From an uncultured Anaeromusa sp. (GTDB lineage Bacteria > Bacillota > Negativicutes > Anaeromusales > Anaeromusaceae): a DNA stretch of 64,000 bases. How positions within the stretch are numbered: position 1 is the first letter of the stretch; each line of letters starts with the position of its first letter. This document shows, piece by piece, positions 20,230 to 43,249 of the stretch. Below the pieces are notes generated by a model. That model ran no database searches. It was not told the DNA's origin and saw nothing but the letters and a program-made list of their open reading frames with translations. A program made the translations under genes and the position numbers. The DNA lies in NCBI RefSeq assembly GCF_963668665.1, contig NZ_OY764901.1, positions 672,501-736,500 on the forward strand, given 5' to 3'.

Positions 20230-21207
20230 TCAGCCTCGCACTAGTTTTAGCGCCGCTTTCAAAACATCTTCTTTCTGGGGTGCTACAAACTGCTCCAACG
20301 GCGGGCTAAAGGGAATAGGCACGTGCTTAAGCCCCAGTCTTGCCGGCGGTGCGTCCAGTTCATCCAAATGATGTTCGCAGACATAGGATACTAATTCGGC
20401 ACCGACGCCCCCCACCTTAGGCGACTCATGCACCACAAGCAAGCGGTGCGTCTTCGCCACCGACGCGGCAATAGTTTCCCGGTCATACGGAAAAACAGTC
20501 CGCAAATCGATGACTTCGGCATCAATGCCTTGCGCCGCCAGCTCTTCCGCCGCCGCCAAGACTTTCGTCATCATAAAGGAATAGGAAATAATCGTAACAT
20601 CCTTGCCTTTTCTGGCAATACGTGCTTTCCCGATAGGAGTGAAATATTCTTCCTCCGGCACTTCGCCACTCATAGAAAACAAGGCTTTATGCTCAAAATA
20701 GAGAACCGGGTCATTGCTGCGAATGGCGCTCTTTAAAAGACCCTTAGCATCAGCAGGATTAGAAGGAATGACGATCTTCAGACCCGGCACATGAAGAAAC
20801 CAAGCTTCTACGCTCTGGCTGTGCTGCGCCGCAGCGGAGCGGATGATACCGTCTGGAGCGCGTAGAACCAACGGCACATCGGTCTGACCGCCGAACATGT
20901 AGCGCACTTTGGCAATCTGGTTAAAAACCTCGTCCATGGCCACGCCGAGAAAATCCGCAAAATGCATGTCAATCACAGGCCTACAGCCATTCAGCGCCGA
21001 TCCTAACCCCGCGCCGACAATAGCGGTTTCCGAAATAGGCGTATCCCGTACACGCTCTAAGCCAAATTCTTGGGGCAAGCCTTTAAACTGACCAAAAATG
21101 CCTCCCTGCCTGGCAATGTCTTCGCCCATGACAAAAACCGTTTCGTCGTGGCGCATTTCTTCACGCATAGCCTCCAAGGTCGCTTCGGAAAAAGAAATTT
21201 TACGCAT
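20230..21207 (-). CDS. acoB: Second 2-oxoacid/acetoin dehydrogenase E1 beta subunit
   Basis: This thiamine-diphosphate-dependent E1 component, beta chain, has 325 aa. The start MRKISFSEATLEAM at 21207 lies 9 nt after GGAGG and mirrors the paralogue at 34069-35049; longer in-frame starts lack support. Family segments are present: GEDIARQGGIFGQFKGL, DTPISETAIVGAGLGSA, the Glu contacting the aminopyrimidine in that ISE motif, and VIDLRTVFPYDRETI. It overlaps the alpha gene by 8 bp. With the alpha chain it should decarboxylate a 2-oxo acid or cleave acetoin and acylate a lipoyl group. The acceptor is unclear, as the only E2 is 11 kb upstream and two GcvH-like carriers are closer. Confidence 0.92.
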   Translation of the reverse strand: MRKISFSEATLEAMREEMRHDETVFVMGEDIARQGGIFGQFKGLPQEFGLERVRDTPISETAIVGAGLGSALNGCRPVIDMHFADFLGVAMDEVFNQIAKVRYMFGGQTDVPLVLRAPDGIIRSAAAQHSQSVEAWFLHVPGLKIVIPSNPADAKGLLKSAIRSNDPVLYFEHKALFSMSGEVPEEEYFTPIGKARIARKGKDVTIISYSFMMTKVLAAAEELAAQGIDAEVIDLRTVFPYDRETIAASVAKTHRLLVVHESPKVGGVGAELVSYVCEHHLDELDAPPARLGLKHVPIPFSPPLEQFVAPQKEDVLKAALKLVRG

Positions 21208-22174
21208 ATTCATCCACCTCCTCCGCAAAGAGATCCTGCAAGGCTTCTTCCGGTTGGGGATAAGGACTTTCTTCGGCAAATTTCAGCGCTGCCGCCAGTT
21301 CCTCCGCCACTACCGTCTCCATCAGATCCATCTCCGCCTGACTCAACCAGCCTTCTTGTTTCACCTTGTCCCGGAAAAAGCGAATCGGACAAAGTTCCTT
21401 TTTGGCATTGACTTCGCTTTTCTCGCGATACAATTCCGGATCACCCACAAAATGGCCTTTGATGCGATACGTGCGCGCTTCAATCATCGTCGGTCCTTCG
21501 CCTGCCCGAGCGCGCGCCACCGCCTCCAGCGCCGCCTGACGGACGGCAAACACATCGTTGCCGTCGACCGTAACACCGGGAATGCCGTATCCTTGGGCCC
21601 GTACCGCCAGGTTTTCCACGCCGCAAGTAGTACGGTAAGGCGTAGTCGAGGCATAGCAGTTCATTTCCAGCACAAAAATGGCCGGCAGTTTCCAAGCAGA
21701 CGCCATATTCACCGCTTCATGAAAGGTCCCTCTGTTGGAAGCACCGTCGCCAAAAAAGCACACCGCCACCTGACCGCTCTTGCGCAACTTGGCCGCCAGC
21801 GCCGCGCCCGTCGCTAGATTGAAGCCGCCGCCAACTACACCGTTAGCGCCCAACATGCCCAAAGAAAAGTCGGCAATATGCATGGAGCCGCCTTTCCCTT
21901 TGCAATAGCCTGTTTTTTTGCCAAAAAGCTCGGCCATCATTTTTTTGACATCCGCGCCTTTGGCGATGCAGTGCCCGTGCCCTCGGTGCGTGCTTGTAAC
22001 CAAGTCCTCGCGGGTCAATACCGAACAAACACCGGTAGCAATGGCTTCTTCTCCTATGTAGAGATGAATGAAGCCAGGCAGCTGTCCACCCAAGAACAAT
22101 TCTTCCGCTTTTTCCTCAAATTTCCTGATTTTTACCATGGTCCGGTACAGAAACGCCAGCAATTCTTTATCCAT
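21200..22174 (-). CDS. acoA: Second 2-oxoacid/acetoin dehydrogenase E1 alpha subunit
   Basis: This is the E1 alpha chain, 324 aa from ATG 22174, which follows GGGAAAGGGGAAGG; the upstream in-frame extension overlaps another gene and has no family similarity. The ThDP motif GDGASN(R) is in CFFGDGASNRGTF with the distal Asn at NCYASTT, and the heterotetramer motif THRGHGHCIAKGAD with KGKGGSMHIAD matches acetoin dehydrogenase AcoA closely. Compared with the paralogue at 35046-36041, the metal-binding region reads GASNRGTFHEAVNMAS instead of GASNQGTFHESINMAS, and the residues after EMNCYASTTPYRTT differ, so a different substrate is plausible. It overlaps the LipS2-like gene by 8 bp. Confidence 0.93.
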   Translation of the reverse strand: MDKELLAFLYRTMVKIRKFEEKAEELFLGGQLPGFIHLYIGEEAIATGVCSVLTREDLVTSTHRGHGHCIAKGADVKKMMAELFGKKTGYCKGKGGSMHIADFSLGMLGANGVVGGGFNLATGAALAAKLRKSGQVAVCFFGDGASNRGTFHEAVNMASAWKLPAIFVLEMNCYASTTPYRTTCGVENLAVRAQGYGIPGVTVDGNDVFAVRQAALEAVARARAGEGPTMIEARTYRIKGHFVGDPELYREKSEVNAKKELCPIRFFRDKVKQEGWLSQAEMDLMETVVAEELAAALKFAEESPYPQPEEALQDLFAEEVDEYA

Positions 22175-23063
22175 GACCTTCCCCTTTCCCGGCCTCGCCC
22201 AGGCCGCAGCACCATGAATGAAAACCACATGTTTGAGCGGTGCGCACCGTTTCCGCCGAAGGAAAGGCCACACCGGAAAAACCTAAAGAAAGCGCTGTTT
22301 CTTCAAGGGCCCGGCCATATTCGCCGCGAGGTCGGGCGCAGCCCAGATAAATCTGTCCTGTGGGCAGTTTTTCCCGGGCGTAATGAAACAGCTTCTGCAC
22401 ACCAGTCAAAGGAGGCGGGCTGCTCAACGCATAGTCCGTACCTGCCAGCGGCGTAAACACCACCAAAACCAGCTTTTCTAAAGCAGCTTCCGCGGCCATA
22501 GCAATCGCCGCTTCTTCTCCCCGCAAAACGCCGCCCTCTAAGCCCAGCACCACATGGGGCGAGACGGCAAGTCCGGCGTTCAATGCTACTTCTAAGCTGC
22601 GCCGATAGTCTGAAGGAGTCAGATTCAAACGATATACTTCTCGAATGGTTTCCGTCGCGCCAATTAGATCAAGGGCTACGGCGTCTACTCGGGCTTGCGC
22701 CAATTCCGCCGCCGTATCCGGTGCCAGAATTCCGGTATGAACAATGACCTTCAGACCTGCTTCTTTGAGAGTCTTCAGTGCCTCTCCATAACCTTTAAGA
22801 GGCACTTGCCCGTCCGGACCAGCGCCGCCGCTGACTAAAACGCCACCGCAGCCGCGTTCTTGTAATGAAGCTGCCAACGCCTCCGCCTGGCTAGGATCTT
22901 CAAAAGGCTCCATGGAGCGCAGCATTTTACCGCCGCAGTGGCGGCAAAGAAGCGCGCAACGCCGCCCTGTTATACTGAGCGACACAAAGCTGTGCGGTTG
23001 ATTGCGCACGCCTTCGATATCGTAATGCTTGCCTCCGGGAATGTAAAAAGCGGTATTATTCAT
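22167..23063 (-). CDS. lipS2: LipS2-like radical SAM lipoyl synthase subunit
   Basis: This radical SAM protein has 298 aa. The 4Fe-4S/SAM motif CALLCRHC (CxxxCxxC) is at about residues 34-41; a GGAGPDG glycine-rich stretch follows, and the C terminus has more cysteines (GCARPRGEYG and TAQTCGFHSWCCGLG) that could hold a second cluster. The partner radical SAM gene, a lipoate ligase and GcvH-like carriers next door match the LipS1/LipS2 lipoyl synthase pair known from archaea and sulfur oxidisers, where both proteins replace LipA in sulfur insertion. Which paralogue is S1 or S2 is assigned by resemblance only. The start at 23063 overlaps the LipS1-like gene by 8 bp. Without the context it would only be called radical SAM. 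Confidence 0.75.
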   Translation of the reverse strand: MNNTAFYIPGGKHYDIEGVRNQPHSFVSLSITGRRCALLCRHCGGKMLRSMEPFEDPSQAEALAASLQERGCGGVLVSGGAGPDGQVPLKGYGEALKTLKEAGLKVIVHTGILAPDTAAELAQARVDAVALDLIGATETIREVYRLNLTPSDYRRSLEVALNAGLAVSPHVVLGLEGGVLRGEEAAIAMAAEAALEKLVLVVFTPLAGTDYALSSPPPLTGVQKLFHYAREKLPTGQIYLGCARPRGEYGRALEETALSLGFSGVAFPSAETVRTAQTCGFHSWCCGLGEAGKGEGHG

Positions 23064-24141
23064 GCCAGATTTGCGCCTCCATGGAAGCCAAGTCCTCCGC
23101 TTGTGGCTGGAAAGGATAGTTGCGCAGCACCTGACCCGGTTTTTCGTTACCATAAGGACGATTACAGGCAGTAGTACAACCGTCGCTGCCCGGACAGCCG
23201 CCGGTCATAAACGGCACGCCCTGCGCCCAGCCTTCGCCAAGGAGTTCTTGCAGGTCAGCGCCAAAAGATACCACTTTTCCGCAAGAGCTGTACGTCAATT
23301 TATCCCAAGGCAGCCTATCGCGATTCGCCAAATACGCCGCCACTTGCATGCGCCGGTACTGTCCCAGGGGCGGCGGCTGCACAGCCTCCATGCCGCTGCC
23401 GTCTTCCGGACAGAAAGAAAACAAGTGAATCTGCGCCCCCGTTTGGCGGACCTGCCTCATGGTACGCACCATCTCTTCTTCCGTTTCTCCCAGTCCAACA
23501 ATCAAGTGCACACTGACAAGACCGTCCGCAAAAACCTCGGTTGCATCCTGCAGCATGTCCCAGTAGCGTTGCCAGCGGTGCGGCCCGGCTACGCCGGCGC
23601 CGCGCCAACGTTCAAAGATCTCCAGCGTCGCCGCATCAACTGCTACGCCTACGCAATCCACTCCTGTGTCGTGCAGTTGCTGCAGATATTCTTTGCCTGC
23701 AGGCAGCGTAGTCGGCGTCAACAGCACGCTGCAAGGCAAATCAGATGCACTATGCAGTTCCTGCACCAGCCTCAGCGTATCCGCCGCCGCCCGAGGATGG
23801 GTAACCATGGAAACACAAATGCGCTGTAGCCCCTGCAAATGGCGATGTCGAAAATCAACTTCATCTCCTTGCAAACGCAGCTTCTCCAAAATGCGCTCTA
23901 CTGAATATAGAGGCCAGCGAACACGGATAAAGGTGCGGCTTTCTTCTTCAATGCGTCGATTCCGCGCTAAACCGCAGTAACCGCAATTGGCCCGACAGCC
24001 GTCTTCATAATGCAAAAGCAAATTCAGACTCCCCGGCGCGCCGCCGCGATAAAAGCCTCCCCGTTTCAAGCCCAGCGCCATGGCCCCTGCCAAGCTGGTC
24101 TGAATCTGTTGCTTTCCCGCTTCCCATGCTGTCTCTTCCAT
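23056..24141 (-). CDS. lipS1: LipS1-like radical SAM lipoyl synthase subunit (biotin-synthase-like)
   Basis: This protein has 361 aa with the radical SAM motif CRANCGYC (about residues 49-56), inside a biotin-synthase-like N-terminal region. A C-terminal cysteine set (GGCPGSDGCTTACNRPYGNE, about 313-332) is suited to an auxiliary Fe-S cluster that could be the sulfur donor. The family name rests on the pairing with the LipS2-like gene, a ligase of the long sLpl type and LipT-like neighbour, as described for the LipS1/LipS2 pathway. It should act on octanoyl groups already bound to a carrier protein. The start overlaps the LipT-like stop (TGATG). Biotin synthase was considered and disfavoured because no bio genes are nearby and the C-terminal Cys set is atypical. 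Confidence 0.75.
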   Translation of the reverse strand: MEETAWEAGKQQIQTSLAGAMALGLKRGGFYRGGAPGSLNLLLHYEDGCRANCGYCGLARNRRIEEESRTFIRVRWPLYSVERILEKLRLQGDEVDFRHRHLQGLQRICVSMVTHPRAAADTLRLVQELHSASDLPCSVLLTPTTLPAGKEYLQQLHDTGVDCVGVAVDAATLEIFERWRGAGVAGPHRWQRYWDMLQDATEVFADGLVSVHLIVGLGETEEEMVRTMRQVRQTGAQIHLFSFCPEDGSGMEAVQPPPLGQYRRMQVAAYLANRDRLPWDKLTYSSCGKVVSFGADLQELLGEGWAQGVPFMTGGCPGSDGCTTACNRPYGNEKPGQVLRNYPFQPQAEDLASMEAQIWHE

Positions 24142-25199
24142 CAGCGCACCTCTTTCATTTCTCGATATTCCGGAAATACCATCCAGCTCTGCCGCACTAC
24201 TTGCGAAAAATCACAGTGACCTTCCTGCTCTCGCCGCCTCTTCCAAGAACCGCTAGCTTTTTGCAAAGGTTGCTGCCATTGACTGCGCAAGTACGCTTCA
24301 TACCAAATCTCCCCTTTGCCGCCTGCTGCCTCTGCAGCCCAGCGCCCGCTAGCCGCCGCAGCATAAATGCCGGCGCCGGACAAAGGATGGGTGCAGCCGG
24401 CTGCGTCGCCGACCAAATATACGCCGCCAGCTGCCAAAACTTTCACCAGCCCCCCCACGGGTATGCTGCCGCCGCTTTTTGCCAGCGGTGCCGCATCGAC
24501 CAGCACGCCTCGCCGTACACATTGAGCAACAAGACCGTTCAGCAGTTGCGGCAACTGCCATACTTCTTCCGACGCCACTGCCAACCCGACATTGGCCTCC
24601 CGCCCTTTCGGAAACAACCAGGCATAACCGCCCGGATACTTACGGGAGAAAAATACATCCAACACTTCCGACGGCGAGTCTAAAGACATCCGGTACTGCA
24701 AAGCGCCGCACCAAGGCACAGGCTCTTCATTCAACCATTGGCGCAGCCGGGAAAAAGGCCCGTCCGCTCCTATCAGATTCCTTGCTGAAATCCGCCTTGG
24801 CAGCTGCCCTTTACGACAAAACACCAGACCATTTTCATACCCTTCTACCCGGCAACCCCGCCAGACCGTGCCTCCAAGCTCCCGCACCTGCTCCTCCAGC
24901 CAAGCTTCCCAGGCTGCCCGATGCAGCATCAAGCCAGGCGCGCGGCTTACATGCTCTTCGCGGTTTTCAATCCACGTCCGCATGCCCTGGATTTCCTGGG
25001 CAACGAACCTCTCCGGCAGCGGCAGCATCTGCCGTACCGCCCGGCTAACAAATTCTGCGCACTGTGCTGTAGCATTCCTTCTTGTCTGCGCTTCCACCAG
25101 CAATACCGACGCCCCTTGACGCAACAAATGCCAAGCAGCACTCAAGCCGGCTACGCCAGCGCCGGCCACAACCACATCCCAAGAAAGGTCGCGCTTCAT
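24141..25199 (-). CDS. lipT: LipT-like FAD-dependent oxidoreductase (geranylgeranyl-reductase superfamily)
   Basis: This FAD protein of 352 aa has the dinucleotide motif GAGVAGLSAAW (about residues 13-23) and the second FAD motif VYLVGDAAGCTHPLSGAGIY (about 269-288), typical of the geranylgeranyl reductase/halogenase group. It lacks the redox CxxxxC of dihydrolipoamide dehydrogenase, so it is not an E3. A FAD protein of this type (LipT) accompanies lipS1, lipS2 and ligase genes in sulfur-oxidiser lipoate clusters, where it is proposed to assist lipoate assembly, perhaps as electron donor. The start overlaps the ligase stop by 4 bp (ATGA). The name is by context and superfamily, so it is moderately secure. 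Confidence 0.68.
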   Translation of the reverse strand: MKRDLSWDVVVAGAGVAGLSAAWHLLRQGASVLLVEAQTRRNATAQCAEFVSRAVRQMLPLPERFVAQEIQGMRTWIENREEHVSRAPGLMLHRAAWEAWLEEQVRELGGTVWRGCRVEGYENGLVFCRKGQLPRRISARNLIGADGPFSRLRQWLNEEPVPWCGALQYRMSLDSPSEVLDVFFSRKYPGGYAWLFPKGREANVGLAVASEEVWQLPQLLNGLVAQCVRRGVLVDAAPLAKSGGSIPVGGLVKVLAAGGVYLVGDAAGCTHPLSGAGIYAAAASGRWAAEAAGGKGEIWYEAYLRSQWQQPLQKASGSWKRRREQEGHCDFSQVVRQSWMVFPEYREMKEVR

Positions 25200-26299
25200 C
25201 CCACAGGCCTCCCTTCCCGGGCCTTCTCCACAGCCAATGCTACCGCCTTTGCAAAATCTCGCGGTTCTACGCCGGGAATTTCTACTTTATGCTCCCAGAA
25301 AAAATCGTCAATCAGCCGCCCCAGTTGCTGCACATCCGCAGGCCGATGCTTGAGATACGCTTCCAAATCACGGATAGCCTTGGCTGGGTAGGCGAAAAAA
25401 TCCCCGCTAATCCAGACAAATTTGAGAAATCTCCGTTTTTCATCCAGCCTGGCCTGCACACGAATCAGCCCCCCTGGAGCCTTATAATTGCCTGTCGCAT
25501 CCACCGTGTCCACCACGCCTTCCTCTGCACCAAAAATCCAGGACTCGGACCGAAAACGAGGCAGTTTTCCGTCCCAGGCCTGCTGCTCCTGACGCTGCAA
25601 AGCTCCCTGCACAAAGGAAAACCCCACGGTTTCCTCCAGCCCATGGAGCACGGCCGCTTTCAAAGCCGCCATATCCGGACGCCTCCCCAGCTCTTTCGTC
25701 ACCGTAGTCATGCGTTCTTCTAAACTGGAAATCCCTTTATCACTCAATTTTTCCGCCGGCAATTTCAGCACCCGCGTCATTTCCCGCACATCTACATCCA
25801 CCAGCAAGCTGCACTGAAAAACAAAAGCGTCTTTGTACTCGCTGCCGCCACTGCCGCAGATTTTACGCCCTCTTACTTCAATATCGTTTACCGGACGATA
25901 GGCGGCTTCAATGCCCAAACGGCCTAGCGCCGCCGCCATTCCTTGACATAGATAGCGGTACAAATCATCCACCCGTCGAGGCAGTCCTGGCGTATGCCGC
26001 GAGGCATACAGTTCCCACCCTAGTTCGCGCGGTCCCCAATACAGGCTGCCGCCTCCGGTGATGCGCCGATTAATCTCCACCCCTTGATGACGGCAATAAT
26101 CCAGGTGCAGCTCCAGTTCCGCCTTCTGGTGCAACCCCAAAAGAGCGCAAGGCTTAAATTGGAGAAAGCGGAAGGTGCTGGGGCTTTGGCCGGAGCCTAC
26201 TGCTTCCAGCAACACTTCATCTAAAGCCATGTGTTCCGCTGCCGTCAGAGGGCCGCTGTCCAAAAGGCGCATTTGCCGCACTCTATCATGGCTGCGCAT
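25196..26299 (-). CDS. Lipoate/octanoate-protein ligase with C-terminal accessory domain (sLpl type)
   Basis: This cytoplasmic ligase has 367 aa from ATG 26299 (GGAGG 12 nt upstream); Met at 26272 fits the family N terminus (MRLLDSGPLTAAEHMALDE) and is a possible alternative. The catalytic fold motifs are INRRITGGGSLYW and the acyl-adenylate Lys motif GRKICGSGGSE. A C-terminal domain of about 90 residues (around 280-367) makes it a fused LplA-LplB form, as in the sLpl(AB) ligases that pair with LipS1/LipS2. It should attach octanoate or lipoate to the GcvH-like carriers encoded beside it. It overlaps the upstream carrier gene by 14 bp. Confidence 0.88.
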   Translation of the reverse strand: MRSHDRVRQMRLLDSGPLTAAEHMALDEVLLEAVGSGQSPSTFRFLQFKPCALLGLHQKAELELHLDYCRHQGVEINRRITGGGSLYWGPRELGWELYASRHTPGLPRRVDDLYRYLCQGMAAALGRLGIEAAYRPVNDIEVRGRKICGSGGSEYKDAFVFQCSLLVDVDVREMTRVLKLPAEKLSDKGISSLEERMTTVTKELGRRPDMAALKAAVLHGLEETVGFSFVQGALQRQEQQAWDGKLPRFRSESWIFGAEEGVVDTVDATGNYKAPGGLIRVQARLDEKRRFLKFVWISGDFFAYPAKAIRDLEAYLKHRPADVQQLGRLIDDFFWEHKVEIPGVEPRDFAKAVALAVEKAREGRPVG

Positions 26300-26696
26300 G
26301 TTCTTCCCACTCCTCCGCCTGTTTTGCCGCCTGCAACGCTGACAAAAGCTGCTGCTGCTCTGCTTCATTCGTCCAAACCACTTCCAGCAGCCAATGTTGA
26401 TACGGCTCGCTATTAATCAGCGCCGGTTGCTGCAACGCCGCTTCATTAACATGAGAAACTGTGCCGCTCAGAGGCGCTTCCAAGCGGCCGATCCATTTGC
26501 CGGCTTCCAAAGAACCCATGGTCTTACCTCTCTCCAGCAGCGTCCCCACCGCCGGCAGGGCCAAATACAATACATCACCGGTCAGCTCTAGAGCATATTC
26601 GGTTAGGCCGATGCGGGCCCTGCCGTTTTGCACTTGTATCCAATGGCGGTTACCGTCGTAAAGCAGTTCTTTCGGAAAAGTCCACGTCTCATTCAT
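26286..26696 (-). CDS. GcvH-like lipoyl carrier protein 1 (LbpA-like)
   Basis: This small lipoyl-domain protein has 136 aa from ATG 26696, 8 nt after GGAGG. The lipoyl-accepting lysine is predicted at K67 in LEAGKWIGRLEAPLSG: the spacing from Lys to the conserved Pro (8 residues) is the same as in GcvH. No gcvT or gcvP is nearby, so glycine cleavage is unlikely. It lies directly between the GlcF/HdrD-like protein and the sLpl-type ligase, so it is probably the ligase substrate and a redox or acyl carrier for the oxidoreductase (inference), like LbpA in sHdr systems. The sequence around the Lys (GKW-x-G) is shared with carrier 2. Confidence 0.88.
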   Translation of the reverse strand: MNETWTFPKELLYDGNRHWIQVQNGRARIGLTEYALELTGDVLYLALPAVGTLLERGKTMGSLEAGKWIGRLEAPLSGTVSHVNEAALQQPALINSEPYQHWLLEVVWTNEAEQQQLLSALQAAKQAEEWEEHAQP

Positions 26697-26716
26697 TTTC
26701 ATTTCCTCCCGCTTTT

Positions 26717-27886
26717 TCAGCCGTCTACAGCCAGCCACAAAATTTCTGCTACATCCAAGATCTGTAAGGGCACCTTTTGGACACGCGCCGCTTTTTCTAG
26801 CATCTGCTCGCATTGCTGGCACGCCGACACCAAATAAGTCGCTCCGGTTTCTTTCGCTTCGTCGATGCGCGCCGCAGCAATGGCTTCCGCCATTTGCGGG
26901 GCTGCTGACTGTAAATTGCCACCACCGCCGCAACAGACAGCATTCGCGCCATATGACGCCATTTCCACCAGCTTCAACCCGGGAATGGCCGCTAAAAGCT
27001 GCCGCGGCGCTTCATATTTGCCGCTGTTGCGACCCAGATCGCAAGGATCGTGGTACGTAACCGTTTCTGCCAGCTCTTCTGGAACGAGCTTACCTTCCTG
27101 CACCAGCTCCAGCAGATACTCTGTGCTGTGAAGCACCCGAAATCCTAATTCCTGACCCAAGCGCTGCGGATATTCATGCGTCCAGGTATGATAACAAGAC
27201 GGACAAGAGGTAAGCAGATTTTTTACGCCCAACGCGCGCACCGCCTCTACATTATGCCGAACAAACTCGTCCATTTCTTCTGCAGCGCCAGCTGCCAACA
27301 ACGGAAAACCGCAGCACCATTCCTCGCCGCCCAAGGTTGTATACGAAACGCCGGCGCGCTCTAAAAGCTGCACCACCGCCACAGGAACCTGCCCGGCACG
27401 GGGAAAGAAGCTGGATACACAACCCACAAAATAAGCGACATCGCTGCCTTCTTGCGCTTCCAAACACTCCGGCACATCATCCAGCTCTTCCGCCCAATCC
27501 AAGCGCGCGGCATTATCAAATTGCGAGATATTCTTCTTTGCAAGCAGGTTTTTCACCAGCAAATCATAGGCCGGCGGCAATTCTCCCTGCTTTTTCAGCT
27601 CGCCGCGTACCTGCTTCCAAACCTGCTGTAAATCAATACGGGCAGCACACTGGGAGGTACAGGAACCGCAGAGGGTGCACTCGCTGATGCGCTTGGCCAG
27701 CAAAGCGCGTTCTTCGCCGCCTTGACTCAGCGCCGCCCGGCGCAGGAGCGTCATTTTACCTCGAGGCGTGGCTGACTCCCAACCTGTCTGGCGGTACGTG
27801 GGACACTCGCCGCGACAGTTGCCGCAGCGGCCGCAAATATCACATTCCGCTTCCCAACCTGTAGAAAAGCTTTTGTTCTCTGTCAT
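26717..27886 (-). CDS. GlcF/HdrD-like iron-sulfur oxidoreductase subunit with two CCG domains
   Basis: This protein has 389 aa. The N terminus has two ferredoxin-type 4Fe-4S motifs (CDICGRCGNCRGECP from C15, and CTLCGSCTSQC). Two complete CCG signatures follow: C-x34-CC-x35-CxxC and C-x35-CC-x36-CxxC (EEWCCGFP, SCPSCY; NAVCCGGGG, ACQQC). In heterodisulfide reductases this signature binds a noncubane cluster that cleaves a disulfide, whereas GlcF of glycolate oxidase transfers electrons from a GlcD flavin. Partnership with the GlcD-like gene (TGATG overlap) and with lipoyl carriers suggests a reaction on the lipoyl disulfide (inference). ATG 27886 was chosen, with GGAGG 9 nt upstream. Confidence 0.9.
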   Translation of the reverse strand: MTENKSFSTGWEAECDICGRCGNCRGECPTYRQTGWESATPRGKMTLLRRAALSQGGEERALLAKRISECTLCGSCTSQCAARIDLQQVWKQVRGELKKQGELPPAYDLLVKNLLAKKNISQFDNAARLDWAEELDDVPECLEAQEGSDVAYFVGCVSSFFPRAGQVPVAVVQLLERAGVSYTTLGGEEWCCGFPLLAAGAAEEMDEFVRHNVEAVRALGVKNLLTSCPSCYHTWTHEYPQRLGQELGFRVLHSTEYLLELVQEGKLVPEELAETVTYHDPCDLGRNSGKYEAPRQLLAAIPGLKLVEMASYGANAVCCGGGGNLQSAAPQMAEAIAAARIDEAKETGATYLVSACQQCEQMLEKAARVQKVPLQILDVAEILWLAVDG

Positions 27887-29364: not shown

Positions 29365-29784
29365 CTACTCTTCTTGTGCATGCTTAGCATGCTCTTCCGT
29401 AAAGAAAGCGTCCGCTTCCGGTCCATGGAGCAGTTCCTGCAACATGCCGTCCAAGTCCTCCGGCCGCAAAACGCAAATCCAGCCTTCACCGTAGCAATCG
29501 CTGTTAAGCAGGCCCGGATTCGTCACCAGTGTTGTATTGGCTTCCACCACTTCCACCGCTGCCGGACATTTCACCTTGCCTGCCCATTTTCCCGATTGGA
29601 TGGAAGCCATAGTCGCCCCGGCCACCAAACTTTTGCCCACGCGGGGAGCGCGTATAAAAGTAATTTCTCCTGCCAATTTTTGCATGAAATCGCTCATGCC
29701 CACACGCACCACATCCCCTTCTACCTTCACCCAGGCATGGTCGCGCGTATAATATAAATCCTTAGGAATCACATAATCCGCCAT
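29365..29784 (-). CDS. GcvH-like lipoyl carrier protein 2 (LbpA-like)
   Basis: This lipoyl-domain protein of 139 aa follows a GGAGG site. The predicted modified lysine is K66 in SIQSGKWAGKVKCPAA, with the GcvH-typical 8-residue spacing to Pro and the same GKW-x-G context as carrier 1 (the two proteins are otherwise well diverged). The N terminus (MADYVIPKDLYYTRDHAWVKV) is GcvH-like. It lies between a lipoate ligase and the GlcD-like gene. No glycine cleavage gene is present. A free carrier delivering reducing equivalents or acyl groups between E1, E2 and the oxidoreductase pair is the preferred idea (inference). Confidence 0.88.
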   Translation of the reverse strand: MADYVIPKDLYYTRDHAWVKVEGDVVRVGMSDFMQKLAGEITFIRAPRVGKSLVAGATMASIQSGKWAGKVKCPAAVEVVEANTTLVTNPGLLNSDCYGEGWICVLRPEDLDGMLQELLHGPEADAFFTEEHAKHAQEE

Positions 29785-30823: not shown

Positions 30824-31161
30824 TCGCAAAAAGCGTCCAGGCATTCTTCGACCAAGGTGGCCGAATACGCCGCCGACGGCGAACCGCCAAAGGCTACAGC
30901 CAAAGTGGCCGCTTCCATGATTTCATCCCGGTTGGCGCCCTCTTCAATGGCTTTGAAAACGTGATAAGCGATGCAATATTCGCAGCGAGTAAACACACCA
31001 ATGGCCAAGGCCATCAACTCTTTATACTTAGCGGGAATTTCCCCCTCCACAAAACAGGCATTGGAAAGCTGCACAAAAGCGGCCGCTACTTCCGGAGCAT
31101 CCTGCCCCAATTTACCCAGCCCTTTTTGGAAATCATTAAGCAATTTTTTAGGATCAGCCAT
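30820..31161 (-). CDS. AhpD-like carboxymuconolactone decarboxylase-family protein
   Basis: This small all-alpha protein of 113 aa carries the AhpD redox motif C60-EYC63-IAYH67 (CxxCxxxH). In AhpD of mycobacteria, this motif accepts electrons from the lipoyl group of SucB and passes them to the peroxidase AhpC. Here it sits inside the lipoate operon, so a direct thiol-disulfide exchange with a lipoyl carrier is reasonable (inference). ATG 31161 has GGAGG 9 nt upstream. It overlaps lipA by 8 bp and the ligase by 4 bp. No ahpC is in the window. Confidence 0.88.
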
Positions 31162-32041
31162 GACACAATTCCTCCTCAAATTCTTTTTTTGTTACTTCAT
31201 CAAAGGTTTCTTTAGCATGATAGGAGCTGCGCACCAAAGGACCCGCTACTACACTGGCAAATCCCAGCCGCGCTCCTTCCTGCCGATAGAATGCAAACTC
31301 TTCCGGTGGCGCATAGCGCACCATAGGCACATGATTCGAGCTGGGCCGCAGATATTGGCCAATGGTTACGATTTCGCAGCCGCTGCGATGCAAATCACTC
31401 AACACAGCCACCACTTCCTCGCGGCTTTCTCCCAACCCCAACATAATACCGGACTTGGTCCGGCTTACACCGGCTTGGGCCGAGCGGGACAGCACTTCTA
31501 ACGAGCGCTCATACTGCGCTTCCGGACGTACTGCAGGATACAGGCGCGGCACGGTTTCAATATTATGGTTGAGCACATCCGGATTCGCCGCCAGCACCTG
31601 TGCCAACGCCGCCGGGTCTCCTCCCAAATCAGGAATCAGCACTTCCACGGACGCTTCTGGGCAATGACGCCGTAGCGCGGTAATCGCTGCCGCGAAATGT
31701 CCTGCGCCGCCATCCGGCAAATCATCCCGCGTTACGGAAGTCACCACCACATGTCGCAGGCCCAGCTTGGCCGCCGCCAGCGCCAGACGTTCCGGTTCGT
31801 TCGGATCCACGTTGGCTACCTGTCCGTCTGGGACGGCGCAAAAACGACAATGCCGCGTGCACACCGACCCAAGAATCATAAAAGTCGCCGTGCGGCTGCC
31901 GAAACATTCGCCGGCATTAGGACACTGCGCTCCTTCACAGACAGTATGCAGCGAGAGTCCGTCAAGCCACCCTTTCATCTGCTGCATGCGCTCTTGGTCA
32001 GGCGCCTTGATCTTTAGCCATTCCGGCCGCTGCTGTCTCAT
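31154..32041 (-). CDS. lipA: Lipoyl synthase
   Basis: This radical SAM enzyme of 295 aa inserts two sulfurs into protein-bound octanoyl groups. Both cluster motifs are seen: the auxiliary one [12 protein letters not shown] (C-x4-C-x5-C, about residues 36-47) and the SAM one CTRHCRFC (CxxxCxxC, about 61-68), plus the conserved C-terminal RSSYHA that supplies a Ser ligand. Start ATG 32041 follows GGAGG with 6-nt spacing. It overlaps lipB by 44 bp, so the pair is tightly coupled. Confidence 0.97.
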
Positions 32042-32696
32042 GAAAGACCTCCTCTTCATAGGTTGCGTCCAATACGTCTGCCAGATTTTGAAGCAGGCAG
32101 TCCTGCACCTCTTCTTCCACGACGCTATCCTGCCACTGCGCCAGCCAATCCACCGGCCGACCGCTTATACCGCAAGGTACAATCATCCGAAAATGATTCA
32201 TATTGGGGCGTACATTCAACGCAATGCCGTGCATACTGACCCAACCCTTTACACCGATGCCGATGGCGGCAATTTTCCCTTTATCGGTCCAGACGCCAGT
32301 CAGCCCTGGTTCCCGCCGCGCCGGCACGCCGAAAACTCCGACGGTACGGATAAGCGCTTCCTCCAGGCTGCGTACATAGGCATGCAAGTCTTGGCCGTAC
32401 TGCCTCAAATCCAAAATAGGATAGACTACAATTTGACCAGGACCATGATAGGTTACATCACCGCCGCGGTCCACTTCCCACACCCGAATGCCTTCGGTTG
32501 CCAATACTTCTTCCGACGCCAGAATGTGCCGGCGGCTGCCTGCTCTGCCAATCGTAAACACCGGCGGATGCCGCACTACCAGCAGCATATCGGAACGCTC
32601 GTTTCTGCGTCGTTCTTGCTGCATCCGTTCCTGCAGATCCCAGGCTGCGTGGTATTCCACACAGCCCAGGTCGCAAAGTGTCCATTCCTGTCTCAT
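31998..32696 (-). CDS. lipB: Octanoyl-[acyl-carrier-protein]:protein octanoyltransferase
   Basis: This enzyme of 232 aa moves octanoate from ACP to lipoyl-domain lysines. The signature [18 protein letters not shown], the catalytic Lys in [17 protein letters not shown] and the catalytic Cys in [12 protein letters not shown] are seen. The C terminus is about 20 residues longer than usual because the reading frame continues into lipA. It lies 4 bp after the E2 gene and with lipA forms the canonical pathway for de novo lipoate. Confidence 0.96.
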
Positions 32697-32700
32697 TCTC

Positions 32701-34029
32701 TTACAAAAGCATGCCCATCGGGTCTTCCAGATAGCCTTTAATGCATTGCAAGAACTGCGCTGCTAAGGCACCGTCAACCAAACGGTGATCAAAGGAAAGA
32801 CTCAATGTCATCATCGAAGCAATAACAATTTCGTCCTTAACAACGACAGGCTTTTTAATAATAGCGCCTACGCCAAGAATGGCGGCTTCCGGTTGATTGA
32901 TGACCGGCGTAAACCCTTCGACGTCATAGCCCCCAAGATTGCTGATGGTAAACGTGCCGCCTTGAAGAGCATCCATGGAAAGCTGGTTGCTCCGGGTCTG
33001 GCTGACCAATTCTTGCGCCGTATTGTGGATAGCCTTGAGTCCTTTGGCGTCCGCTTGTTTCAACACCGGCACCATTAACCCATCATCCAAGGCTACGGCA
33101 ATGCCTACATTGACGTCTTCGTGTGTAATCACATTGCCCTCGATGAGCGACGAATTGATAGCTGGGAAACGGCGCAAGGCCGTAGCTGCCATTTTTACCA
33201 GCAAATCTGTATAGCTGTAACGCACGCCTTCTTCGCGTTTATTGAGTTCTTTACGGAAAGCAATGGTAGCGTCGACGCAAATATCCATAAAGATGGTTAC
33301 ATGAGGAGCCGTATGCTTGCTGGCAGTCATACGCTCGGCAATAATTTTGCGCATACCTTTGAGAGGCTGACCGGCAGCAGCTTTCGCTGGAACCGCCGCA
33401 GCAGCGGCCGGCGCAGGCGCTGCTGGCGGATTAGCTGCGGCTTTGCGCACATCTTCTTCCACAATGCGCCCTTCGGGGCCGGTGGCGACAACAGTCGCCA
33501 GATTAACGCCTAATTCTTCAGCGATTTTCTTGGCATACGGCGAAGCCTTGATCCGTCCGTCCGCGCTAACTGTAGCCGGCGCCGGAGGAGGATTCTTTAA
33601 GTATTTTTCTACGTCGGACGCTTGAATGCGTCCATCCGGGCCAGTACCGACAACCAGACTCAACTCAATTCCTTTTTCCGCGGCCATCCGTTTGGCCGCC
33701 GGTGAAGCTTTGATTTCCTTGGGCGCGGCAGGAGCCGCTACTGCGCCAGCCGCTGCAGCCGGTGCGGCGCCGGGGGCACTAATAGCCTCATCAGCCGTGC
33801 CAATAATGGCCAACAGCCCTTTTACGGGCACTTCGGCGCCTTCTTCAGCGCAAATGACCCGCAGCACCCCTGCTTCCGGCGATTCCACCTCGCTGGTAAT
33901 CTTGTCGGTCATGATTTCTACCAGAGCGTCACCTACCGCCACCGTGTCGCCCACCTGTTTTTTCCACTTGCCGACGGTTCCCTCTGTCATGGTCAGCCCC
34001 AGTTGGGGCATGATGATTTCACTCGCCAT
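32701..34029 (-). CDS. acoC: Dihydrolipoamide acyltransferase E2 with two PSBD domains
   Basis: This E2 core protein has 442 aa. Domains: lipoyl (1-78) with lipoyl-Lys43 in EIMTDKITSEVE, then two peripheral-subunit-binding domains (about 108-145, ASPAAKRMAAEKG; about 161-197, ASPYAKKIAEELG) separated by an Ala/Pro linker, and the catalytic domain (about 220-442) with active-site His in SLSFDHRLVDGALAA. PSBD domains bind E1 and/or E3, so two copies are notable where no E3 gene is present in the window. An alternative GTG start 6 bp upstream is closer to the AGGAG site. It should form the core with the E1 pair encoded just upstream. Confidence 0.93.
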   Translation of the reverse strand: MASEIIMPQLGLTMTEGTVGKWKKQVGDTVAVGDALVEIMTDKITSEVESPEAGVLRVICAEEGAEVPVKGLLAIIGTADEAISAPGAAPAAAAGAVAAPAAPKEIKASPAAKRMAAEKGIELSLVVGTGPDGRIQASDVEKYLKNPPPAPATVSADGRIKASPYAKKIAEELGVNLATVVATGPEGRIVEEDVRKAAANPPAAPAPAAAAAVPAKAAAGQPLKGMRKIIAERMTASKHTAPHVTIFMDICVDATIAFRKELNKREEGVRYSYTDLLVKMAATALRRFPAINSSLIEGNVITHEDVNVGIAVALDDGLMVPVLKQADAKGLKAIHNTAQELVSQTRSNQLSMDALQGGTFTISNLGGYDVEGFTPVINQPEAAILGVGAIIKKPVVVKDEIVIASMMTLSLSFDHRLVDGALAAQFLQCIKGYLEDPMGMLL

Positions 34030-34068
34030 GGTCACCCTATCTCCTTTTCCGTAAAATACGCGCTTTAT

Positions 34069-35049
34069 TCAAGCACGCCCCATTGCCTTTTTAACGCCTT
34101 TGATAATGCATTCCGGCTGTGGATAAATCTGATCTTCCAAAACTGGGCTGAAAGGAGGCACCACATTCATGCCGGCAATCCGTTCCACTGGCGCGTCCAG
34201 TTCATCAAAGAGTTCTTCCATGATCTGCGCGGCAATTTCGCCGCCAAAGCCGCCCCGTTTAGGCGCTTCCTGCACCACAACGGCGCGATGGGTTTTCTTG
34301 ATAGAATCGGCAATGGTTTCCCAATCCAGCGGCACCAAGCTGCGCAAGTCAATAACTTCCACATCAATACCCTCTTTAGCCAGCTCGTCCGCTGCCTGCA
34401 AAGAGAACAACACTTCCCGCGAATAGGTAAGAATGGTCACATCCTTGCCAGGACGTTTGATATCCGCTTGCCCAAAGGGAATGAGGTATTCTTCTTCCGG
34501 CACTTCTCCTTTACCGGCGTAAAGCAGCTTATGCTCCAAAAAGATAACCGGATCGTCGTCGCGAATGGCGGTCTTCAAAAGCCCTTTGGCATCATACGGT
34601 GTGCAAGGAGCCACCACTTTCAAGCCCGGAATGTGGGTAAAAAGGCCTTCCAAGCTCTGGGAATGCTGTCCGGCATTGCGCCGTCCGGCGCCTTGGGGAG
34701 CACGGATAACCATCGGTACCGTAGCCTGGCCGCCAGTCATATAGCGCATCTTTGCCGCCTGATTCATAATGGGATCCATACAGACCCCGGCAAAATCAAC
34801 ATACATCAACTCTACTACCGGACGCAGGCCCCTCATGGCTGCGCCAACAGACATGCCCGTAAAGCCGGACTCCGAAATCGGCGTGTCAATAACGCGATTA
34901 GCGCCGAATTCTTCCATAAACCCTTTGGTCAGGCCAAAGACACTGCCCATAACGCCCATGTCTTCGCCGATAACGAAAACCGACTCATCGCGAACCATTT
35001 CTTCATGCATAGCCTCGCTCAGCGCTTGGCCGTAAGTAATTTTTCTCAC
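34069..35049 (-). CDS. acoB: Acetoin/2-oxoacid dehydrogenase E1 beta subunit
   Basis: This is the E1 beta chain, 326 aa, with a GTG start at 35049 that overlaps the alpha stop (GTGA). Typical segments are GEDMGVMGSVFGLTKGF, DTPISESGFTGMSVGAA, PQGAGRRNAGQHSQSLE and VIDLRSLVPLDWETI. The length and motifs match AcoB and PdhB. Together with the alpha subunit and the E2 next door it should oxidise acetoin or a 2-oxo acid to acyl-CoA. The acetoin label rests on sequence resemblance and on the AcoR-like regulator, so the substrate is not proven. Confidence 0.93.
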   Translation of the reverse strand: MRKITYGQALSEAMHEEMVRDESVFVIGEDMGVMGSVFGLTKGFMEEFGANRVIDTPISESGFTGMSVGAAMRGLRPVVELMYVDFAGVCMDPIMNQAAKMRYMTGGQATVPMVIRAPQGAGRRNAGQHSQSLEGLFTHIPGLKVVAPCTPYDAKGLLKTAIRDDDPVIFLEHKLLYAGKGEVPEEEYLIPFGQADIKRPGKDVTILTYSREVLFSLQAADELAKEGIDVEVIDLRSLVPLDWETIADSIKKTHRAVVVQEAPKRGGFGGEIAAQIMEELFDELDAPVERIAGMNVVPPFSPVLEDQIYPQPECIIKGVKKAMGRA

Positions 35050-36041
35050 CGCAGGACACCCCTTTCGTTGTCGACGGCATACATATCCGTAATTACTTCA
35101 TCCGCTTCCGGGAAAGGAGATTCTTCCGCAAACGCCACTGCCGCTTCGATTTCTTCTTTGACTGCCGTTTCAATCGCGGCAAGCTCCTCTTCGGTAATGC
35201 CGTTTTGTCCCGCTAGCTGCGCGCGCAGACGCACGACCGGATCTTTCTCTTTCCAAGCCTGCATTTCTTCTTTGGTCCGATAGACCATCGGATCTCCTTC
35301 ATAGTGGCCGCGCTGCCGATAGGTTTTGCACTCAATCAGCGTCGGACCATCGCCCTTGCGAGCCCGTTCGGCAGCCGCTGAAACGGCTTCGTATACAGCA
35401 AAGACGTCGTTTCCGTCTACAACCACGCCGGGAATATGGTAGCCCTGCGCCCGGTCAGCAATGTCTTCCGTGTTGGTCACCCGGTCAATACAGACCGAAA
35501 CGCCATACTTGTTGTTTTCACACATATAAATGATGGGCAGCTTCCAAGCCGAAGCCATGTTGATGGACTCATGGAAGGTTCCTTGATTGGATGCGCCGTC
35601 GCCAAAAAAGGCCAAGGTCACATCGTCAGAGCTTTTGATTTTGCTAGCCAGCGCCGAGCCGGTAGCAATGGGAATGCCTGCGCCCACAATGCCGTTAGCG
35701 CCTAAAATCCCCAAGTTTACGTCGGCAATGTGCATGGAACCGCCCTTGCCTTTGCAATAGCCGGTTTTCTTGCCAAAAAGCTCGGCCATCATTTTCTTCG
35801 GGTCCGCTCCTTTGGCAATACAATGACCGTGTCCGCGATGAGTAGCGGTAATAAAATCACTTGGCCACAGCGCCTGGCAAGCGCCTACCGCTGTGGCTTC
35901 CTCACCGACACAGGTATGAATATTTCCGGACATGCGGGCCTGCAGAAACAGTTCTGCCGCCATGGAGTCAAACGAACGTACTTTAAACATTTCCCGGTAA
36001 AAAGAAAGCAATTGCTCTTTCGTGTACTTTTTCGCAGCCAT
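35046..36041 (-). CDS. acoA: Acetoin/2-oxoacid dehydrogenase E1 alpha subunit
   Basis: This is the E1 alpha chain, 331 aa, from ATG 36041, which has GGAGG 7 nt upstream. The ThDP-binding motif is FFGDGASNQGTF with the far Asn in ENNKYGVSV; THRGHGHCIAKGADPKKM and KGKGGSMHIADVNLG are family hallmarks shared with AcoA of Bacillus. It begins 2 bp before the PPC gene ends. It is the first enzyme gene of the operon. The paralogous pair at 20230-22174 has similar lengths but clear divergence near the ThDP pocket. Confidence 0.94.
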   Translation of the reverse strand: MAAKKYTKEQLLSFYREMFKVRSFDSMAAELFLQARMSGNIHTCVGEEATAVGACQALWPSDFITATHRGHGHCIAKGADPKKMMAELFGKKTGYCKGKGGSMHIADVNLGILGANGIVGAGIPIATGSALASKIKSSDDVTLAFFGDGASNQGTFHESINMASAWKLPIIYMCENNKYGVSVCIDRVTNTEDIADRAQGYHIPGVVVDGNDVFAVYEAVSAAAERARKGDGPTLIECKTYRQRGHYEGDPMVYRTKEEMQAWKEKDPVVRLRAQLAGQNGITEEELAAIETAVKEEIEAAVAFAEESPFPEADEVITDMYAVDNERGVLR

Positions 36042-36043
36042 GT

Positions 36044-36535
36044 TCAAACCTCCAATGGTTCCGGGCTGAATTGGACAAAGCCCGTTTCTTCATCAAAGCG
36101 ACGCATCATATTTACGCCGCCAATTTCCTGGATCACCAAGTCCAGTGTAGCCAAAACAATGTTGCCGTTCGTAAAATGGCCGCCCCAAACCCGCAAGTCC
36201 TTGTCGCAAGCAGAGCCGTGAAAATGAATCAGATATTTATCTTCTTCGGACTGACAAATGATCCCCTGTCCGCCCAAAAATTCAATCGGCCCCGTAAGAA
36301 CAACCGGCTCGCCATAAACAATACCGATTTTCGCGCCTTCTTGAGGAACCGGAATCACAAAGGTTGCTTGTTTGAAAGCGCCAACGCTGCAAGAAACAAC
36401 GCCTTGCTTAATGCCGTGTTTGCGGCAGCATTCTTCAATGCCAGGGAGTACGTCCGTCCCCGGCAGCAGCCGAGCTACCACCGTTCGCGCCGCAATTCCT
36501 TCCACTGATTGAATTCGCATAGGATTGTCGCTCAT
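36044..36535 (-). CDS. PPC/DUF296 domain protein
   Basis: This small soluble protein of 163 aa has the plant-and-prokaryote-conserved domain. The hallmark HFHGSACDKDLRVWGGHF-type core with the metal-binding His pair (HFHGS and GGHF) and the trailing VLATLDLVIQEI are seen. Bacterial members form trimers whose biochemical role is not known; a DNA-binding function as in plant AHL proteins needs an AT-hook, which is absent here. Position between the carrier and E1 alpha suggests a part in the same pathway. The ribosome site GGAGG is 8 nt upstream. Confidence 0.82.
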   Translation of the reverse strand: MSDNPMRIQSVEGIAARTVVARLLPGTDVLPGIEECCRKHGIKQGVVSCSVGAFKQATFVIPVPQEGAKIGIVYGEPVVLTGPIEFLGGQGIICQSEEDKYLIHFHGSACDKDLRVWGGHFTNGNIVLATLDLVIQEIGGVNMMRRFDEETGFVQFSPEPLEV

Positions 36536-36579
36536 TCCAATAGCCTCCTCATCGACCTTAAAAATGATAGTTCACCATT

Positions 36580-36621
36580 ACCTGGCCGGAATCTTAGGAA
36601 CTCCAGACCAACCGGCCAGGT
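36580..36621 (-). other. Intercistronic hairpin between MFS and PPC genes
   Basis: This is a perfect 10-bp inverted repeat, ACCTGGCCGG / CCGGCCAGGT, with a 22-nt loop, in the only sizeable gap (97 bp) of the operon's first half. There is no adjacent T-run, so a full terminator is unlikely. It may stabilise or partially attenuate the mRNA between the transporter and the enzymes. Confidence 0.55.
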
Positions 36622-36632
36622 ACAGTCTCTTC

Positions 36633-37904
36633 TTAGCTTTGAGCTTTTTGATTCTGAGGCATCGCGGCCGCAACCGCCCGCTCCGGTTCCTTGACGAAGA
36701 AGATAATGGCCGCAGTAGCCACCAATGCCGCTACCATGAAGGTAAAGGCTGCGTCATAGCCGGAACCGCCAACCAAATACCCGATGGCAATCGGAGCAAA
36801 AATGCCGCCAACATTACCGCCTGTATTCATAACAGCGGAAGAAGTACCCGCAAATTTACGCTTTACACATTCCATCGGCAACGCCCAGAAAGGACCGAAA
36901 GCCAGTCCCAGAACAAAACCGGAACACACCAGCGCCGTCATGGCCATTGCTTCTGTTTGCGCCGTCACCACGCTGAACAATACCGGCGCAGCAATCAATG
37001 TAGATACCATGACCTGGTATTTGCGGTTGCGCCCTTTGAGAATCTTGTCGGAAATATAACCGCCCAGCGGTTGAGCCACACCCAAGGCCAGGAACGGCAG
37101 CCCGGCAAAAATGCCCATTTTAACCATTTCAAAGCCCCGCGCTTTAACCAGATAACTGGGTAGCCACGTCATAAGTCCGTAGAAGGTGCATAAGAAGGTG
37201 AAGTAGGCTAACGCCAACAACCAAGTATTGCGATTCCGGAACACGCTGCTTAGGCCTTCGCCATTATCGTCTTCCTTAACCGCAGCCGTTTCCAGCTGTC
37301 CTTCTTCAATATATTTGAGCTCTTCTTGCGAAATTCGTTCATCCTCTTTCGGCGCATTGCGCACGACCCAAATCCACAAGGGAATGACCAGAAAACCAAG
37401 AATCCCGAAAATATAGAAGATGGAGTGCCAGCCCCAAGCTCCAATGATGGCTACTGCCAGAGGCGGCGCCACAGCTGGGCCTAAGGAGTTCGCCGAAGTA
37501 AAGATGGCGTTGGCTGTTGCCCGTTCCCGATTGGGGAACCAGTTGCTATTTAACTTGAATGCGCAAGGCGGATGCACGCCTTCGCCAATACCAAAGAGAA
37601 TACGCACGATGTACAATTGACTGAAGTTTTTGGTCAAGCCTGTCGCCATCGTCATGATGGACCACCAAACCAAAGCTACAGTCATAACTTTTTTCGGGCC
37701 AATTTTATCGCCCAAAATGCCGCCAGGAACTTGCAGTAACGTGTAGGTGATAAAGAACGCGCTTAAGATCAGACCGGTCTGCTCTGGGGACAGCTGAAAA
37801 TCTTTGGCAATGAGCGGCATTGCCACCGAAAGATTGACACGATCCAGAAATGCGACGAAAAATACGAGCCACGAGGCTCCTAAGAGTAGCCAACGTCTTT
37901 GCAT
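36633..37904 (-). CDS. MFS transporter, anion:cation symporter type, first gene of lipoate operon
   Basis: This cytoplasmic-membrane carrier of 423 aa shows 12 predicted helices. FFVAFLDRVNLSVAMPLIA and the loop GGILGDKIGPKKVMT place it in the ACS branch (organic and sugar acids). GGAGG lies 8 nt before the ATG, and a sigma-54 promoter is 143 nt upstream. As the first gene it probably imports the growth substrate of the operon. ACS carriers favour carboxylates, so the substrate may be an organic acid rather than the neutral compound acetoin (inference). Confidence 0.9.
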   Translation of the reverse strand: MQRRWLLLGASWLVFFVAFLDRVNLSVAMPLIAKDFQLSPEQTGLILSAFFITYTLLQVPGGILGDKIGPKKVMTVALVWWSIMTMATGLTKNFSQLYIVRILFGIGEGVHPPCAFKLNSNWFPNRERATANAIFTSANSLGPAVAPPLAVAIIGAWGWHSIFYIFGILGFLVIPLWIWVVRNAPKEDERISQEELKYIEEGQLETAAVKEDDNGEGLSSVFRNRNTWLLALAYFTFLCTFYGLMTWLPSYLVKARGFEMVKMGIFAGLPFLALGVAQPLGGYISDKILKGRNRKYQVMVSTLIAAPVLFSVVTAQTEAMAMTALVCSGFVLGLAFGPFWALPMECVKRKFAGTSSAVMNTGGNVGGIFAPIAIGYLVGGSGYDAAFTFMVAALVATAAIIFFVKEPERAVAAAMPQNQKAQS

Positions 37905-43231: not shown

Positions 43232-43249
43232 TTTCGTCACTCCATCTTA

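Follow-up and report, generated by a model that had tools for sequence, protein, structure and literature searches.

A GlcD/HdrD-like protein pair may stand in for dihydrolipoamide dehydrogenase in a lipoyl-dependent operon of an uncultured Anaeromusa sp.

How is a dihydrolipoyl group reoxidised when the operon encoding its E1 and E2 components lacks an E3? Lipoyl dehydrogenase complexes are generally taken to share dihydrolipoamide dehydrogenase (E3, gene lpd) as their final step. Such an operon is found at 20230–37904 of a 64,000-nucleotide stretch of the genome of an uncultured Anaeromusa sp. (contig NZ_OY764901.1, positions 672,501 to 736,500), the whole of which is called here the window. 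In place of E3 the operon encodes an AhpD-like protein with a CMD domain (CMD), two free GcvH-like lipoyl carriers (GcvH1 and GcvH2), a GlcD-like flavoprotein and an HdrD-like Fe-S protein. From the evidence presented below, the GlcD/HdrD-like pair, with CMD and the carriers, would stand in for E3, a reading to which we give a probability of about three in four. Comparative genomics gives the proposed replacement of E3 good support.

The operon is a run of 19 tightly packed minus-strand genes, with gaps of no more than 97 bp and many overlaps between open reading frames; the GlcD-like and HdrD-like genes overlap by 4 bp. The order of transcription is MFS, PCC, E1 alpha, E1 beta, E2, LipB, LipA, CMD, LplA-like, GcvH1, GlcD-like, HdrD-like, GcvH2, LplA/LplB-type ligase, LipT-like, LipS2, LipS1 and a second E1 pair. 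A previous sequence-only reading of this DNA had listed two E1 pairs, one E2, two GcvH-like proteins, a GlcD-like protein and an HdrD-like protein with two CCG motifs, all of which are present on this strand; its list was correct and had left CMD, LipA/LipB and the LipS1/LipS2/LipT/Lpl set unmentioned. The genes for the dehydrogenase and redox proteins are as follows.

35046..36047, minus strand: E1 alpha (profile match)
34069..35049, minus strand: E1 beta (profile match)
32701..34035, minus strand: E2 with a lipoyl domain, two peripheral subunit-binding domains and an acyltransferase domain (profile match)
30820..31179, minus strand: AhpD-like (CMD domain) CxxC protein, proposed thiol relay (profile, alignment, PDB match)
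29365..29784, minus strand: GcvH-like lipoyl carrier 1, motif SIQSGKWAGK (profile, alignment)
27886..29337, minus strand: GlcD-like FAD protein lacking GDGNxH/EHGxG; C-terminal tail conserved (profile, alignment, fold)
26717..27889 (open frame up to 28006), minus strand: HdrD-like Fe-S protein, two 4Fe-4S and two CCG motifs
26286..26702 (open frame up to 26933), minus strand: GcvH-like lipoyl carrier 2, motif SLEAGKWIGR
21200..22273, minus strand: E1 alpha, second copy (profile match)
20230..21279, minus strand: E1 beta, second copy (profile match)

The distribution of these genes was determined in 380 Negativicutes genomes. Orthologues of the GlcD-like protein (E ≤1e-40) were found as 12 copies in 11 genomes, and E2 places, identified by PF00198, numbered 59 in 43 genomes. 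Each of the 12 GlcD copies lay 0.5–4.0 kb from an E2 gene. Among the matches listed, an lpd gene within 10 kb was found at none of the 12 module E2 loci as compared with at least 38 of the 47 other E2 loci (Fisher p 2.6e-7, kinship ignored); the lpd places of all 11 module genomes were covered in this count. The nine E2 loci at which both GlcD and lpd were missing from the 10-kb range (G299:C143, G067:C30, G067:C38, G301:C76, three in G316, G346:C8 and G347:C34) include several short frames or frames at contig ends, and the three of G316 were perhaps miscounted as lpd-free, the lpd of that genome (E 1.8e-82) being without a place among the matches listed.

Gene order was read in the 12 module loci (the window and L029 to L039). 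CMD, GlcD, HdrD and E2 were each present in all of them, and GcvH1, GcvH2, the ligase, LipT, LipS1 and LipS2 each in 11. A comparison of gene order in relatives, suggested from the sequence alone, showed the order kept across four genera; with GlcD identities to relatives outside the genus of the window of only 47–51%, the arrangement is therefore more than chance. The smallest locus, L037, a second copy in genome G083, reads Lin0512-E1-E1-AcoX-E2-CMD-GlcD-HdrD. The full module is found in the acetogen Sporomusa ovata DSM 2662; two lpd places are listed for the genome matched to this strain. Gene content was compared with that of 15 non-module E2 loci out of 47, two of them (L048, L053) shortened by their contigs, and in these no hit for GlcD, HdrD, GcvH1, GcvH2, LipT, LipS1 or LipS2 was obtained. 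Twelve of the 15 contained lpd and 11 contained LipA and/or LipB; the exceptions to the general pattern were one distant CMD match (31%, L044) and weak Lpl-type hits (23–26%) in L050.

An E2 tree was calculated from 27 of the 59 E2 rows (12 module, 15 other). The module E2s fell into two separate clades, the supported branches forcing at least two label changes, and the nearest supported kin of the second clade were the E2 of L051, which has neither partner, followed by the lpd-type E2s of L042 and L049. Under fewest changes, the link between E2 and the module would have formed twice. Identities across the two types were 43–56% for E2 and CMD, 60–76% for HdrD, 65–74% for GcvH1 and 46–64% for GlcD (four matrix rows), a pattern consistent with a single redox module that became attached to two distinct E1/E2/CMD sets, CMD having gone along with E2.

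The L051 locus (G067:C38) is itself an acetoin-type operon, Lin0512, E1, E1, AcoX, E2 and DUF6506; neither lpd nor GlcD gave a hit over the length fetched. Genes for an iron-only hydrogenase and NuoE/NuoF-like subunits lie downstream of it.

The lipoyl-Lys (K66 of GcvH1), already described as conserved from the sequence alone, was invariant in 16 of 16 aligned rows, comprising 8 of 11 GcvH1, 7 of 11 GcvH2 and the canonical GcvH of the genome; it lies within a GKW motif in both operon carriers and in a VKA motif in the canonical protein. The PDB matches of GcvH1 of the window and of GcvH2 of S. ovata were all named glycine-cleavage H proteins. In CMD, residues E54, C66, C69 and H73 were invariant (10 of 12 copies aligned) in the AhpD register of Glu, CxxC and His, which we take from M. 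tuberculosis AhpD, and the search against PDB gave an AhpD match with an E value of 1.5e-21. The two CCG and two 4Fe-4S motifs of the HdrD-like protein were likewise invariant (10 of 12 copies aligned). Its best NCBIfam match was TfrB, at 173 bits far under the curated cut-off of 385, and its structure prediction, with a poor mean predicted local distance difference test score (pLDDT) of 63.5, was left out of the fold searches. Proteins of the TfrB type oxidise thiols to a disulfide.

The fold of the module GlcD (model pLDDT 72.5) was of the D-lactate dehydrogenase/ADPS type, as would be expected if the GlcD/HdrD pair were a lactate- or glycolate-type dehydrogenase that merely shares the operon, a form of the separate hydroxyacid oxidation that the sequence-only reading had offered as its alternative. 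The GDGNxH and EHGxG motifs were absent from all 12 module copies, whereas they were present in the four canonical paralogues of the genus of the window (4/4), and a separate hydroxyacid oxidation is weakened because these substrate and metal motifs are missing. Against it stand also the score of the operon protein, 72.5 bits with a GlcD family cut-off of 567.9, and the linkage to E2 of all 12 copies, and we consider it highly improbable. After the NPGK motif the module GlcD carries a C-terminal tail of 33–36 residues, moderately hydrophobic and with no clear membrane span.

In the preferred reading, in which the pair replaces E3, the thiamine-dependent E1 together with E2 would cleave a 2-oxoacid or an acetoin-like ketone, leaving a dihydrolipoyl group on E2. 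CMD would draw two electrons from the E2 thiols through disulfide exchange and load them onto the lipoyl groups of both free carriers; the HdrD-like protein would oxidise the carrier dithiol at its CCG sites, of the non-cubane type, and reduce the FAD of the GlcD-like protein. The GlcD-like protein would in turn reduce an acceptor, not NAD+ but possibly menaquinone or an electron-transfer flavoprotein. Each of these transfer steps, the acceptor and the specificity of the two lipoylation sets described below are what we infer; the order of the relay is tentative, and we lean somewhat against this exact sequence of steps. The tail of the GlcD-like protein could be a membrane contact, pointing to menaquinone, and its fold likeness to LctD of the Ldh-Etf complex (7qh2_C), which was among the fold matches, could point to an electron-transfer flavoprotein. 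The direction of a transfer from lipoamide to quinone was judged with the quinone potential. Lipoamide is given a potential of −0.29 V in the part of PMC6067878 that bears on it, and electron transfer to quinone would therefore be downhill. More broadly, the module may represent a class of 2-oxoacid/acetoin dehydrogenases without any E3, in which CMD and free carriers would feed a CCG/flavin pair and then quinone or an electron-transfer flavoprotein, uncoupled from NAD+ and able to conserve energy by respiration; we regard this as possible, with the balance tipping slightly against it.

The operon shares parts with several known systems. As in the pyruvate and acetoin dehydrogenase complexes, there are E1 alpha/beta pairs (two here) and an E2 with lipoyl, acyltransferase and subunit-binding domains; the difference lies in the CMD, carrier, GlcD-like and HdrD-like proteins encoded in lieu of E3. 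The Sporomusa module loci resemble acetoin dehydrogenase loci also in a gene with an ATP-NAD kinase domain profile, which we take to be AcoX. The designation "acetoin-type" made from the sequence alone seems to suit the Sporomusa loci, and for the window it gained no support. With the sHdr-LbpA system the operon has in common GcvH-like lipoyl carriers, a CCG Fe-S protein and a dedicated set of Lpl-, LipS1-, LipS2- and LipT-like proteins. It differs in the linkage to E1/E2 and a GlcD-like protein and in that no HdrA or sHdr B1/B2 and C1/C2 subunits were found in a search confined to the 19 operon proteins. TfrB and the HdrD acting on coenzyme M/coenzyme B (CoM/CoB) have the same 4Fe-4S and CCG motifs as the HdrD-like protein, whose score lies below the cut-off, whose partner is a GlcD-like FAD protein and for which no CoM/CoB context was seen. 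The mycobacterial AhpD-DlaT-Lpd system likewise places an AhpD-fold CxxC protein beside a lipoyl E2, whereas here the proposed flow from E2 is to an Fe-S/flavin pair and not to a peroxidase; no AhpC was found among the operon proteins, and a genome-wide search for it was not made. Finally, the FAD_binding_4 and FAD-oxidase_C fold is shared with GlcD and LctD, the enzymes of glycolate and D-lactate, from which the module GlcD differs in its missing motifs and extra tail.

No description of an E3-replacing system was found in the literature searched, some of the searches having had other aims and most subscription papers and all preprints being outside its reach, and no match to the S. ovata locus tags was found in papers. 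The linkage of canonical and LipS1/LipS2 lipoate genes in several Sporomusa species is reported in a section of PMC10332631, the main text of which does not contain the words GlcD and HdrD. For bacterial hdr-like clusters a shared E3 was supposed in a passage of the 2018 eLife paper (PMC6067878), and according to an excerpt of PMC9430772, dihydrolipoate had no effect when tested on a different Hdr-type complex from S. ovata. If confirmed by experiment, the system proposed here would be a new way of recycling lipoic acid in a group of anaerobic bacteria. Lipoyl electrons could then exit by an Hdr-type Fe-S route, with NADH not obligatory; the reoxidation of lipoyl carriers in sHdr-type systems could be approached in a simpler system in culturable acetogens, and energy-yield estimates would change for Sporomusa growing on acetoin or butanediol.

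Is there an E3 elsewhere that could serve the operon? As the sequence-only reading had stated, there is no lipoamide dehydrogenase in the window; all 19 matches in the genome (E ≤0.001) were outside it. Only one of them was above the cut-off, an lpd on the other contig (G000:C2:1441947-1443302; 482.6 bits, cut-off 408.8). The operon is E3-less and the genome is not. The genome contains a single E2, that of the operon being the sole PF00198 match, and three GcvH genes. The operon E2 might accordingly use this lpd in trans, as a shared E3, with the GlcD/HdrD pair acting in parallel, for instance on a metabolite linked to E1/E2. Among the four genomes of the genus, lpd was present in all, whereas GlcD and E2 were present in two and neither was found in the other two. 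In genome G300, matched to Sporomusa sp. KB1 (two contigs, 100% complete, 10% contaminated), E2 and the module are present (L033) and the best lipoamide-dehydrogenase match reached 135.4 bits, below the 408.8-bit cut-off. The two Pyr_redox_dim proteins of this genome (E ≤1e-8) are not lpd products, because both have rhodanese domains, one of them also TusA and DsrE domains; the genome has no GcvH genes besides the two of the module. In G303 the lone lpd above the cut-off encodes an N-terminal lipoyl-type domain and adjoins an OsmC gene.

No GDC-P match was obtained in four of the 11 module genomes (G000, that of the window, G003, G300 and G303), the first two being both of the genomes of the window's genus tested, and in these four the GcvH-like proteins have no detected GcvP to work with. 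By their coordinates, each of the eight GDC-P places in the 11 genomes lies within 4.2 kb of an lpd, which therefore has another client there. In the three places that were read (L056, L060, L061) lpd closes the glycine-cleavage operon. A shared E3 also leaves unexplained why lpd is absent from precisely the module loci, and on these grounds we consider it unlikely.

The sequence-only proposal that the GlcD/HdrD pair replaces E3 has strong comparative support in the linkage to E2, the exclusion of lpd from the locus, the genome of Sporomusa sp. KB1 with no lpd match above the cut-off and the two E2 clades; the role assigned to the carriers is tentative, as is the order of the relay. Several points weigh against replacement. 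E2 could be supplied in trans by the lpd of the window's genome, 10 of the 11 module genomes contain an lpd, and the E3/E1-binding (subunit-binding) domain is retained in all six module E2s tested (of 12). A sigma-54-like site with one mismatch lies upstream of the lpd of the window's genome. Since the KB1 assembly consists of two scaffolds with 10% contamination, a missing lpd operon could in principle sit in a gap. CCG motifs occur also in proteins without known action on disulfides. L037 has no hit for a carrier or a lipoylation gene, the full set being present in the same genome at L036. LipS1 is not specific to the module; in each of the three Sporomusa operons that were read, only a few genes separate it from lpd. 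Tests outside the Negativicutes were weak: a scan of genome contigs with two strict peptide patterns yielded six loci, all of Sporomusa or Pelosinus, and says little on distant phyla; no GlcD match was found in plasmids (E ≤1e-20). The replacement of E3 is, finally, a proposal from sequence comparison.

Beside these, the Sporomusa glycine-cleavage operons (L056, L060, L061) have their own LipS1, LipS2, ligase and lpd, and their LipS1 scores above that of the module. In L055 (G303) and L059 (G296) an lpd with an N-terminal lipoyl-type domain has as neighbours a gene of the OsmC type (profiled in L055 only), a gene resembling a ligase and one for an MFS transporter; this unit is perhaps a self-contained lipoyl peroxide defence. 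A canonical GcvH gene was also seen near a GGGtGRT-family gene (L010:8942-9316), in a genome without a GDC-P match.

The operon contains two sets of lipoylation genes, listed below.

31998..32696, minus strand: LipB octanoyltransferase (profile match)
31154..32059, minus strand: LipA lipoyl synthase (profile match)
29816..30844, minus strand: LplA-like transferase/ligase, divergent (profile match)
25196..26368, minus strand: lipoate-protein ligase, LplA-LplB type; true start probably later
24141..25199, minus strand: LipT-like FAD oxidoreductase, geranylgeranyl reductase family; the name LipT from position and analogy
23056..24141, minus strand: LipS2-like radical SAM protein (profile match)
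22167..23153, minus strand: LipS1-like radical SAM protein (profile match)

LipS1 scored 210.8 bits (cut-off 230) and LipS2 220.5 bits (cut-off 270), both near full length. LipA and LipB would lipoylate E2, and the Lpl/LipS1/LipS2/LipT set the special carriers. With the module embedded among LipA, LipB, Lpl, LipT, LipS1 and LipS2, the GcvH-like proteins might instead be scaffolds in an octanoyl/lipoyl relay to E2, the GlcD/HdrD pair feeding electrons to lipoyl synthesis; LipL performs a relay of this kind from GcvH to E2 in Firmicutes, as stated in a section of PMC10332631. We consider such a role very unlikely, given that LipT is already the candidate reductase (PMC10332631), that the 15 comparison loci have no hit for GcvH1, GcvH2, LipT, LipS1 or LipS2, though LipA and/or LipB are present in most, and that L037 keeps GlcD-HdrD in the absence of any lipoylation gene hit. 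LipS1 was rejected as a module-specific marker, being present in 45 of the 380 genomes.

The genes at the head of the operon, those preceding it and the putative promoter sites are the following.

36633..37904, minus strand: MFS transporter (profile match)
36044..36535, minus strand: PCC/DUF296 domain protein (profile match)
38048..38063, minus strand: sigma-54-type site with one mismatch, upstream of the first operon gene
38252..40366, minus strand: sigma-54-dependent activator, below equivalog cut-offs; start codon uncertain
40218..41693, minus strand: Lpl catalytic-like and DUF116 protein, weak yet above Pfam cut-offs; start codon uncertain
41759..41774, minus strand: sigma-54-type −24/−12 site, exact match, upstream of the Lpl-DUF116 gene

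The number of sigma-54-type sites in a scan of the whole window was not above chance. A −24/−12 site with at most one mismatch was found before the first gene in 10 of the 12 module loci, the background being 0.023 per 350 bp, and the E1/E2 genes and the redox module therefore probably share one promoter. An E3 elsewhere that is co-regulated with the operon had been named in advance as evidence against replacement; an E3 does exist elsewhere, whereas its co-regulation through the sigma-54-like site was rejected, because the site is missing from the operon-bearing G003 and occurs in G002, where no E2 was detected, and because a sigma-70-like box pair upstream of lpd, recognised by eye in the alignment, is common to the four genomes of the genus. 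The occurrence of lpd in two congeners without a detected E2 is in agreement with this.

Directly upstream of the Lpl-DUF116 and activator genes, at 41891–43240 of the window, lies a gene for sigma-54 (RpoN) with all three domains. A related Lpl-DUF116 fusion directly follows LipS1 in Sporomusa malonica (L032). At the other end, a Cache-domain chemoreceptor gene (18190–20190) begins 39 bp past the second E1 beta gene and may belong to the operon.

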